DNA of 64,000 nucleotides from Scytolyngbya sp. HA4215-MV1 (GTDB lineage Bacteria; Cyanobacteriota; Cyanobacteriia; Leptolyngbyales; Leptolyngbyaceae). The position numbers and the translations under genes are program-made. The stretch covers positions 372,001-436,000 of the forward strand of contig JAHHIA010000003.1 of the NCBI GenBank assembly GCA_019359045.1. The letters are read 5' to 3'. Shown here one piece after another: positions 39,059-41,987 of this stretch. The notes beneath the pieces were generated by a model. It was not told the DNA's origin, made no database searches, and was given only the letters and a program-made list of their open reading frames with translations. The stretch's first letter is position 1; every line of letters starts with the position of its first letter.

Positions 39059-40099
39059 TTATCGTCTGGCAAGTCGGTGAATCCAAAGATAATCTTCGCC
39101 TTCGGGTGAGCACTTGGTTTGAATTAGCGCATTCGAGTAATGGAGATTTGCGCCAGAGAGGTCGGTTCGGTAGCCAGAAGATGTCCATTCTCCATAAGGA
39201 TCATTGACAAAAAAGCCGTACTGATCGTAACCACGCACAACAATGACATGCCCAAAGGTGGTGAAGTAGCCGTGGATGATACAGGGTCTTCCCTCTGCGA
39301 TCGCTTGTCGAAGATCTGATAAGGTGCCTCGCTTGGTCAAATCATCTACCAATCCATAATTACGGGACATTGTTGCTAAATCATCCGCATCCCAACGGCT
39401 TAGTCCGGTATTGGCCATATACCGATAGAGTTCATCCTCCAGTTGTCCAACGCCAGTGGTGCCTTTGATGCGAAAGTAGGTCATGACCATGGCAAACGAC
39501 GTCACATTACAGGATCCTGTGGGGTTGAGTACGTTATCGAGTTGGCTTTTGTGTGGGACGTTCAACTGTTTCGTGGCGGGCAACCCACCAGCGGGAGCAG
39601 TGGGTTGCGGGGTGATGAGTACTTTGGGCTGGGTATTAATAAATTGGGCATGGGGAGCGAAGACATACCAGGTATTGCGAGGCGGATCTCCAAGCGTGTC
39701 CCACAGCAAAGAAAATTTGAGATGGTTGTTATTAGCATTTGCCCAAGATTGGAGATTCAGTACGCGACCTGCAGGGGTCATTACTTTATCCTGGGTCGGT
39801 AACTGTGAAGCATTGTCAGTAGATTGTTTAAGAATTGTGTCTTGCGTAATTTTAATGCTGGCAGGCTGGATCAACTGCAAATGTTGTGTGAATACGTACC
39901 AGGTATTGCGAGGGGGATATCCCAACGTATCTTTGAGCAGCGCAATTCGGACATAGCTTTGATTGATCACCTTCCAAGAGTGAATGTCGTATACTTGCCC
40001 AGCTGAAACCGATACTTTATCGACGTCAGGCAGTTGGGCTGCAGGCTCAGTCGTTTGTTTGAAAACAGTGTCTTGGATGATCTTGAGTTGTACAGGCAT
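39059..40099 (-). CDS. C39-family cysteine peptidase with duplicated N-terminal module
   Basis: A 346-residue protein. Residues 1-70 and 75-145 are two copies of one module: KIIQDTVFKQ / KITQDTILKQ, then a Lys-x-Val strand and a PPRNTWYVF ending in each. The C-terminal papain-like domain starts near 165 (LNVPHKSQLDN). It has the catalytic Cys in NPTGSCNVTSFAMVM, the His in FGHVIVVRGY and the Asn/Asp in VNDPYGEW. C39-like domains without transporter fusion cleave or bind peptides or peptidoglycan stems. There is no signal peptide, which is odd for a wall-directed enzyme. ATG at 40099; the preceding TTG is less likely. Confidence 0.85.
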   Translation of the reverse strand: MPVQLKIIQDTVFKQTTEPAAQLPDVDKVSVSAGQVYDIHSWKVINQSYVRIALLKDTLGYPPRNTWYVFTQHLQLIQPASIKITQDTILKQSTDNASQLPTQDKVMTPAGRVLNLQSWANANNNHLKFSLLWDTLGDPPRNTWYVFAPHAQFINTQPKVLITPQPTAPAGGLPATKQLNVPHKSQLDNVLNPTGSCNVTSFAMVMTYFRIKGTTGVGQLEDELYRYMANTGLSRWDADDLATMSRNYGLVDDLTKRGTLSDLRQAIAEGRPCIIHGYFTTFGHVIVVRGYDQYGFFVNDPYGEWTSSGYRTDLSGANLHYSNALIQTKCSPEGEDYLWIHRLARR

Positions 40100-40263
40100 C
40101 AAACTTGTCCTAATCAGAATTTTCCACTCTCAAATTTAGCGATGATTGCTCCAGTTGAAATTCTAATTTTGTATAAATTGGGGCGAATTGTTCCAGGAGA
40201 TGGGTCGCTCAAGCCCAGGAGCTTTTTGGGGGAATTGTCCATGCCACTTTCTGATAGGACTGT

Positions 40264-40305
40264 GTAGCTTCAGCTACAAATTGAGATTTAGGGGGCATGA
40301 ATAAT
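40264..40305 (+). promoter_or_regulatory. candidate NtcA-activated promoter of cynS
   Basis: GTA-N8-TAC at 40264-40277 (GTAGCTTCAGCTAC) matches the NtcA consensus and is a perfect inverted repeat, TGTAGCT/AGCTACA around TC. Exactly 22 bases further is AATAAT (40300-40305), one mismatch from a TATAAT -10 box. That is the spacing of class II NtcA promoters. The cynS start codon is 68 bases beyond. Confidence 0.6.
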
Positions 40306-40372
40306 TGAGCCGGAGTCAGGTTCATAACCTCCTGATGTTTCGATCAAAATATAAGTTTCAAGAGATTGTAGG

Positions 40373-40810
40373 ATGATGCCACCATTGACAGAAAAGCTTT
40401 TGGCAGCGAAGCAGGCAAAAGGCTTGAGTTTCGCTGATTTGGAGAAGCAGATAGGGCGAGATGAAGTTTGGATTGCGGCACTTTTCTATGGGCAGGCAAG
40501 TGCTTCTGAAACTGAAGCCAGTCAATTGATTCAAATTTTGGGATTACCTGTTGAGGTTGCGGTTGAACTGATGGCTTTCCCTGCGAAAGGGTTAGGTGCT
40601 GTGGTTCCGACAGATCCGTTAATTTACCGTTTTTATGAGATTATGCAAGTTTATGGCTATCCAATGAAGGCAATTATCCATGAGAAGTTCGGGGATGGCA
40701 TTATGAGCGCGATCGACTTTACCCTGGACATTGAAAAAGTAGAAGATCCAAAGGGCGATCGCGTGAAAGTGATTATGAATGGGAAGTTTTTGCCCTATAA
40801 GAAATGGTAA
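40373..40810 (+). CDS. cynS: cyanate hydratase (cyanase)
   Basis: Converts cyanate and bicarbonate to ammonia and two CO2, so it detoxifies cyanate and supplies nitrogen; a cytosolic decamer. A 145-residue protein with the N-terminal helical domain ([20 protein letters not shown]) and the C-terminal catalytic dimer domain. The catalytic Arg and Glu are in [11 protein letters not shown] (R86, E89) and the catalytic Ser in GIMSAIDF (S112), spaced as in E. coli R96/E99/S122. Two adjacent ATGs could start it (40373 or 40376) after AGGATG. The cyanate/nitrite ABC transporter cynABD usual upstream in cyanobacteria is not here. Confidence 0.95.
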
Positions 40811-40835
40811 AGGGTTGAGTATAGCTGAGAGCGCT

Positions 40836-41987
40836 TCACTGGGCTTTGTAAGTGCGACGACGACGAGCCAAAAAGTCGGGCAGATCCACTTTGGGGGAGT
40901 GGGGCGTTTGTGTGTTGCTGGGTAAGGAGGTGGGCGTTCCAGTGGTGGGAGATTGCAGCAGGTTGAGGATTTCTGCCAGCAGCATTTCGGCTTCGGCAAC
41001 TGAACTTGCGTCTGAAGATTCTTCTGTCAAGAGCTTTGTCAAGATGGGTGATAATAATTCGCGCAGACGGGTGGCGTGGCTTTGGCTCGCCAGACAGCGG
41101 TTTTTCCAATGCTGAACAGCAGTTTCGTATTCGCTGGCTTGTTTGGCTTGCTTCAAGATTTGCTCTTGCATTTCGGCAATTTTTTGCTGTTCTTGGCTCC
41201 CAATGTTGATTTGGTGATGAGTAAGTTCTTCAATTCGGCTTTGGGCGATCGCCAATTCCCGGTTAAGCGTCACCAGTACAGAATGCTCATCCGGTGAAGT
41301 GCTTAAAGGAGTTTGCTGTAAGTGAGTGATAATGGCTTGTTGCTCTTCTAAAGCAACATACGCTTGTTTCAGTTCGGTTTCCAAACGAGTGAGGCTAGTT
41401 TGGCGGCGCTCCAATTCTGTGGAGAGGGTTTGAATTTCCCTCTGGGCAGAATTGAGCTGCTTTTCGAGTTCGTTAATTTGAGTTTGTGCAGATAAAAGTT
41501 GCCTTGCCAAATCGGCAATTTGGTAGGCTGAAAAAGAGGATTCTCTCGGTTGAGGCGTCTGACCTTGAGCTTTGAGCGCTGTTTCTTGTTCGGCTAATTG
41601 TCGTTTGAGTTGTGCGATCGCTTGCTGCTGAATATTGGCAATTTCTTCTGTGGCTGCCAATTGGGACTCTAGCAATTGCTGATCAGCGACTCGCAGCCGC
41701 AACTCTCCAAACGTTGCTAGGGATTCATCTAATGCTTGCTCTAATTGGCAAATGCGGGTCAATCGATTTTGGACGAGGGTTTGCGTCTGTGCCAGTTCGC
41801 TCAACAAAACTTGCCGCTCTTGCTCCCACGAAGCCATCGGTTGCGAAGTGCCATTGCTAGACGTCAAGGTATTCGGCATTCCTTGTACGGCAACAAAAGA
41901 TGCTGCCCTATTACCTGGGGCATCTGACTGAGAGCCTTGTTGACCCTCTGACAAATCACGATCGGTCAGGCGGTCTGGGTCAGACAC
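40836..41987 (-). CDS. coiled-coil protein of unknown function
   Basis: A 383-residue protein. A Ser/Gly-rich disordered N-terminus (1-55) is followed by long Leu-heptad coiled coil (about 55-310), with blocks such as LSELAQTQTLVQNRLTRICQ, QAIAQLKRQLAEQETAL and TLSTELERRQTSLTRLETEL. A low-complexity tail carries a basic end (LARRRRTYKAQ). No catalytic or membrane domain. Such proteins in cyanobacteria are often cytoskeletal or cell-division related, but I do not recognise this one. Convergent with cynS, 25 bases apart. Confidence 0.78.
   Translation of the reverse strand: MSDPDRLTDRDLSEGQQGSQSDAPGNRAASFVAVQGMPNTLTSSNGTSQPMASWEQERQVLLSELAQTQTLVQNRLTRICQLEQALDESLATFGELRLRVADQQLLESQLAATEEIANIQQQAIAQLKRQLAEQETALKAQGQTPQPRESSFSAYQIADLARQLLSAQTQINELEKQLNSAQREIQTLSTELERRQTSLTRLETELKQAYVALEEQQAIITHLQQTPLSTSPDEHSVLVTLNRELAIAQSRIEELTHHQINIGSQEQQKIAEMQEQILKQAKQASEYETAVQHWKNRCLASQSHATRLRELLSPILTKLLTEESSDASSVAEAEMLLAEILNLLQSPTTGTPTSLPSNTQTPHSPKVDLPDFLARRRRTYKAQ

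Follow-up and report, generated by a model that had tools for sequence, protein, structure and literature searches.

Does NtcA switch on the cyanase gene cynS at this locus, and is the promoter in front of the gene built like those of known NtcA targets? The question was pursued in the window (by which we mean the whole stretch of 64,000 nucleotides that was analysed), in the source genome (6.6 Mb, 33 contigs) and in related genomes. Judged from sequence, we give a probability of about 78% to the reading that the site described below is the NtcA binding box of a class II activated cynS promoter. The genome encodes NtcA: six matches to the NtcA family profile were found, one of which lies above the family cut-off.

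The cynS locus and its upstream region

The features discussed below are the following:

39059 to 40102, minus strand: divergent C39-peptidase-like gene; it borders the intergenic region and lies outside the promoter
40263 to 40278, plus strand: NtcA-type box TGTA-N8-TACA, with core at 40264 to 40277, 7-base inverted arms and matrix rank 1 in the window
40278 to 40299, plus strand: 22-base spacer, of the same length in the glnA and nirA promoters of this genome
40300 to 40305, plus strand: candidate -10 element AATAAT, five of six bases as in TATAAT, without the first T of TAN3T
40312, plus strand: predicted transcription start, 41.5 bases from the box centre, with a leader of about 61 bases; geometry as described in PMC3898017
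40350 to 40355, plus strand: rival -10 element TATAAG, proposed from sequence, which would place the box at about -91.5
40373 to 40810, plus strand: cynS, cyanase of 145 amino acids (TIGR00673), standing alone

The reading frame of cynS begins with the ATG at 40373, and its stop codon ends at 40810. NCBIfam and Pfam both identify the product as a full-length cyanase, the NCBIfam model TIGR00673 with 204.1 bits against a cut-off of 113.3. The upstream region contains TGTAGCTTCAGCTACA at 40263-40278, which starts 110 bases before the gene and ends 94 bases 5' of it. Its core GTAGCTTCAGCTAC (40264-40277) has the form GTAN8TAC, extends to TGTA-N8-TACA, and is separated by 22 bases (40278-40299) from the hexamer AATAAT at 40300-40305; the arrangement of GTA-N8-TAC, 22 bases and AATAAT given in a preliminary description of this DNA is thus confirmed. 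The same description called the box a perfect inverted repeat, which is correct for the 7-base arms TGTAGCT / AGCTACA but not for the TC centre, which is not self-complementary.

Box and hexamer are located in the 270-base gap between cynS and the divergent C39-peptidase-like gene. On the 3' side, cynS is followed by a convergent gene (40836-41987, minus strand), and none of the seven genes for nitrate/cyanate-type binding proteins found in the genome is on the cynS contig. Given these neighbours and the lack of a binding-protein gene on the contig, cynS stands alone, in agreement with its earlier designation as a single-gene cyanase.

Two other origins of the site were considered and rejected. 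A dispersed repeat would recur; however, GTAGCTTCAGCTAC occurs exactly once in the genome, and its copies with at most two mismatches (21 forward, 22 reverse) are fewer than those of the control (53 and 45), so that it is not a dispersed repeat. An RNA element was considered as well. Neither the box hairpin nor the leader gave a better fold than shuffled sequences (z-values of -0.86, 0.52 and -0.48), and for this reason no riboswitch or attenuator is claimed. Right after the predicted start, a small inverted repeat, AGGTT-CAT-AACCT, is found at 40318-40330, in a leader whose folding is no better than that of shuffles.

Strength of the box and the -10 element

The bare pattern GTAN8TAC is uninformative, as it occurs seven times in the window compared with 3.75 expected (at least seven in 12 of 100 shuffles). 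Therefore, a matrix was derived from promoters of the family's glnA and ntcA genes, both known targets of NtcA. It comprises 28 glnA and 26 ntcA sites, including glnA and ntcA of this genome, and no cynS sequence. The glnA control consisted of 30 upstream regions, taken from 30 of the 35 genomes over the cut-off; 29 of them have GTAN8TAC and 28 gave a site with TAN3T at N22, the two without TAN3T at N22-23 being excluded from the matrix. For ntcA, 30 upstream regions from 30 of 38 genomes were used, 26 of which contain a site with at least seven of the eight conserved bases; the four regions without a 7-of-8 site were excluded.

With this matrix the cynS box scores 17.2 bits and ranks first in the window, followed by a site with 12.4 bits. 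It lies inside the range of the glnA sites, whose median is 17.1 bits (15.5 bits for ntcA). Shuffling the 270-base gap 20,000 times gave a score this high once, and shuffling the whole window 100 times gave it in two cases; no site in the 490,647 bases of 80 named cynS loci matched it. The cynS box exceeds chance expectation and scores within the span of the family's glnA sites.

Its standing in the genome was determined with a second matrix, from which glnA and ntcA of this genome were excluded and to which three flanking bases were added. Among the 50 strict TGTAN8TACA boxes examined, out of 53 in the genome, the cynS box ranks fourth; the box of glnA is first, and that of urtA (whose product, a partial protein, has a match to the UrtA model) is sixth. 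The boxes ranking second, third and fifth (L195, L191, L205) lie within long reading frames (at least 80 codons). Since three of the five best strict boxes are placed in this way, a promoter cannot be deduced from a high score alone. Such reading frames contain 26 of the 50 examined boxes; the other 24 are outside. A genome-wide excess of the strict box is absent, with 53 occurrences versus 66 for the reversed control, and the full pattern with TAN3T is likewise not enriched across the genome (21 versus 43 in the control).

According to PMC3898017, canonical NtcA-activated promoters are class II promoters with a -10 element of the form TAN3T; a distance of about 22 bases between box and -10 element is given in PMC4073136. 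At cynS we find GTAN8TAC, a spacing of exactly 22 bases and an ntcA gene in the genome. TAN3T is missing: the hexamer at N22 is AATAAT, no TAN3T hexamer exists at N20-N24 after the box, and the window contains no match to the strict pattern GTAN8TAC-N22-TAN3T. As the -10 element lacks the first T of TAN3T, we do not file the cynS promoter as canonical. The preliminary description had recognized here the layout of NtcA-activated promoters, and of this the box and the spacing stand, the latter being the same at glnA and nirA of this genome, whereas the -10 element does not conform. A match of at least five of six bases to TATAAT is found exactly at N22 in 1.0% of shuffles and anywhere in N20-24 in 5.0%. 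In short, the cynS box is strong and its -10 element is off-consensus. A role of the box for the divergent peptidase gene was considered and rejected; there is no TAN3T on the peptidase side either.

The promoters of this genome allow a direct comparison. The class II NtcA promoter of glnA resembles that of cynS in having TGTA-N8-TACA and a spacing of exactly N22; it differs in its -10 element, which is TAGGAT (TAN3T) instead of AATAAT, and in the position of the box, which is about 340 bases before glnA but 110 bases before cynS. The nirA gene has two promoters, with TAACTT and TACTTT, each exactly at N22. These two NtcA-type promoters are arranged in tandem (G000:C31:75929-75970 and 76099-76140, minus strand; L248); their box cores are identical, their flanks differ, and their boxes score 16.3 and 4.7 bits with the second matrix. 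A nitrate-type binding-protein gene is located 3' of nirA.

A TAN3T hexamer is present at N20-24 on one side of seven of the 50 examined strict boxes, all seven belonging to the 24 boxes outside the long reading frames mentioned above; the cynS box is not among them. Other strict boxes of this genome with TAN3T were noted as well. One (L210, box at 799) has it at N23 and precedes a urtA-like gene (urea transporter). Two more (L208 and L215) have it at N22 and are beside two genes whose proteins share the sequence TSVSQLxDVQPTDWAFQALQSLVERYGC. We take these proteins to be SLH-domain porins; they are possibly nitrogen-controlled.

An imperfect -10 element has parallels at other NtcA targets. Among the 26 family ntcA loci (within L119-L148) with a box of at least seven of eight bases, only one has TAN3T at N20-24; note that the ntcA promoter is termed non-canonical in PMC3898017. 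For nirA of Synechococcus WH7803, PMC9430850 gives a predicted NtcA promoter with AAAACT, that is AAN3T. On account of the 25 family ntcA loci without TAN3T and of the WH7803 nirA promoter, activation by NtcA stays compatible with the off-consensus element at cynS.

The imperfection of AATAAT, together with the sequence TATAAG at 40350-40355, which is a fair -10 element, invites the alternative that NtcA activates from afar. The core promoter would then be TATAAG with a start near 40362, and the box would be at about -91.5 in a class I-like arrangement; a box at this distance would be in a helical phase that CRP uses at class I promoters. We consider this improbable. The 22-base spacing equals that of glnA and nirA in the same genome, and canonical NtcA-activated promoters are class II according to PMC3898017. 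A scan of the plus strand of 40050-40900 detected no promoter-like pair at its threshold. For a class II promoter at AATAAT, the absence of a sigma-70 type pair from this plus-strand scan is as expected, because such a promoter would depend on its activator.

Comparison with cynS loci of relatives

The family sample comprised 42 genomes, none other of the same genus, and a cynS match was found in 37 of them. For box counts, 110 cynS loci were reduced to 96 by removing exact duplicates. At least seven of the eight letters of TGTA...TACA with a gap of 8 occur between -150 and -30 in 18 of the 96 loci (that of the window's genome included), compared with 3.5 in shuffles. The same criterion downstream of cynS gave two of 96, and gaps of 5, 6, 7, 9, 10 and 11 in the same upstream interval gave three to eight of 96. 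In the wider interval from -250 to 0, gap 8 was found in 25 of 96 loci (7.0 expected); there, gap 11 (16 of 96; 7.0 expected) and gap 9 (13; 6.8 expected) were raised too. After weighting by similarity clusters, gap 8 accounts for 12.0 of 69, and the other gaps from 4 to 12 for 2.0 to 6.5. With the matrix, at least 10 bits were reached in 16 of 96 upstream versus two of 95 downstream regions.

The enrichment of gap 8 in front of cynS indicates an NtcA-type signal in part of the cyanobacteria examined. As 78 of the 96 loci have no box with seven or eight matching letters between -150 and -30, the box is no general feature of cynS; some of the loci without a strong box may be transcribed together with their upstream neighbour.

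These data bear on the alternative that the box is inert, resembling an NtcA site by chance, and that an unrelated promoter drives cynS. The gap-specific enrichment in relatives, the exact 22-base spacing and the rarity of the score in shuffles of the intergenic region (one in 20,000) all argue against it. Four observations can be set on its side: the missing genome-wide excess of strict boxes, the 26 boxes, of 50 examined, that lie within long reading frames (at least 80 codons), the two of 100 whole-window shuffles that reach the score, and the off-consensus -10 element. On balance we regard a chance resemblance as quite improbable. That another CRP-family protein of this genome, e.g. a cAMP-type regulator, binds the box in place of NtcA is very improbable: the six NtcA-profile matches, one over the cut-off, would allow for it, but the half-sites are GTA/TAC, not the TGTGA of CRP, and the glnA/ntcA matrix gives 17.2 bits. 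The NtcA reading is supported by the box, its score, its spacing, the presence of ntcA and the enrichment 5' of cynS in relatives; with regard to its sequence, cynS very probably carries an NtcA site at activating distance.

The relatives also provide a lead on the -10 element. For pattern counts at this element, 118 cynS loci were reduced to 104 distinct ones, 19 of which have a best box match of seven or eight letters. TAN4T is present at N21-24 in nine of the 19 and TAN3T in four, one locus having both; the expectation per window is 8.9% for TAN4T and 7.4% for TAN3T. In a grid of box gap and -10 length, the combination of gap 8 and TAN4T stands out with 8.8 of 69 clusters, the next cell having 4.5. 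TAGGAGT, TACAACT, TACAAGT, TAAAACT and others are found at N21-23 after cynS boxes, while glnA has TAN3T. The loci concerned are L108, L052, L028, L019, L036, L235, L091 and L110 (boxes with seven or eight of eight letters) as well as L116, L230, L232 and L094 (six of eight). At the cynS box of the window, the sequence at N21 is GAATAAT, one base off TAN4T. We treat TAN4T only as a lead, since the pattern was noticed and counted on the same data, since some 7-of-8 matches (L033, L055, L062) resemble hairpin stems and not NtcA sites, and since ntcA promoters mostly lack TAN3T too.

One genus of the sample (g12) has an inverted repeat, ATCAAATTCG ... CGAATTTGAT, that spans the cynS -10 element; two loci read ATCAAACTCG ... 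CGAGTTTGAT. The repeat is found at L091, L044, L112, L036 and L235, at about -46 to -7 of cynS, with arms of 10-12 bases and, between loci, one paired change from T-A to C-G. Five of the 42 genomes, all five from g12, have a single copy with exact arms, each time directly 5' of a cynS; in one genome with two cynS copies (G017) it precedes one of them. The other three g12 genomes (L009, L099, L110) have an imperfect version. Exact arms were not found in the reversed control of the 42 genomes, nor in the window's genome. The repeat could act as an operator that responds to a second signal.

Taken together, family cynS promoters might form an NtcA subtype of their own, consisting of a gap-8 box and a poor -10 element at N21-23 (TAN4T or one base off) with almost no transcription without NtcA, to which one genus would have added the cynS-only repeat as a possible operator for a second, cyanate-specific signal. 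We rate this generalization as rather unlikely.

Proposed activation and nitrogen control of cyanase

In the class II reading, activation would proceed as follows. A shortage of ammonium and the rise of 2-oxoglutarate would lead an NtcA dimer to bind 40263-40278, with its centre presumably 41.5 bases upstream of a transcription start at about 40312. The dimer would recruit RNA polymerase to the weak -10 element AATAAT, acting as an activator rather than a repressor. The transcript from about 40312 would carry a leader of about 61 bases, and the cyanase then produced would free ammonium from cyanate.

Nitrogen control of cyanate use in several cyanobacteria, which the preliminary description had invoked, is indeed published for Synechococcus WH7803, Synechocystis and S. 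elongatus 7942. For WH7803, PMC9430850 describes a predicted NtcA promoter of cynS and a 274-fold increase under nitrogen starvation versus ammonium, the largest among the nitrogen-gene values given alongside. The cynS genes of WH7803 and of the window are alike in having a predicted NtcA box and -10 element; they differ in that WH7803 has the degenerate box GTG-N8-AAC, N23 and TGGCAT (as given in PMC9430850), whereas the window has a full-consensus box, N22 and a -10 element whose first base alone deviates from TAN3T. The cynS unit of Synechocystis 6803 is stated to be ammonium-repressed at the level of transcription (PMC10094980, citing Harano et al. 1997), and the cyn operon of S. elongatus 7942 is listed as increased on nitrogen starvation (PMC4973221). 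In both organisms cynS is transcribed within an operon or larger transcription unit; the cynS described here is alone. Harano and co-workers reportedly found that NtcA is required for cynS of Synechocystis. Further regulators may be involved in the control of cynS, as the gene of Anabaena PCC 7120 (all1291) is tabled in PMC4788461 among genes lowered on altered FurA.

The literature matches listed include no study of how cynS is controlled in this family; one may still exist. Nitrogen control of cynS is already known elsewhere; the site described here is a further case that fits these reports, and a sound if ordinary prediction. Cyanase turns cyanate into usable nitrogen. The analysis leads to the well-supported prediction that this stand-alone cyanase is part of the nitrogen-starvation programme, and the comparative data offer a simple test of the idea that a weak -10 element keeps cyanase off unless nitrogen is short.
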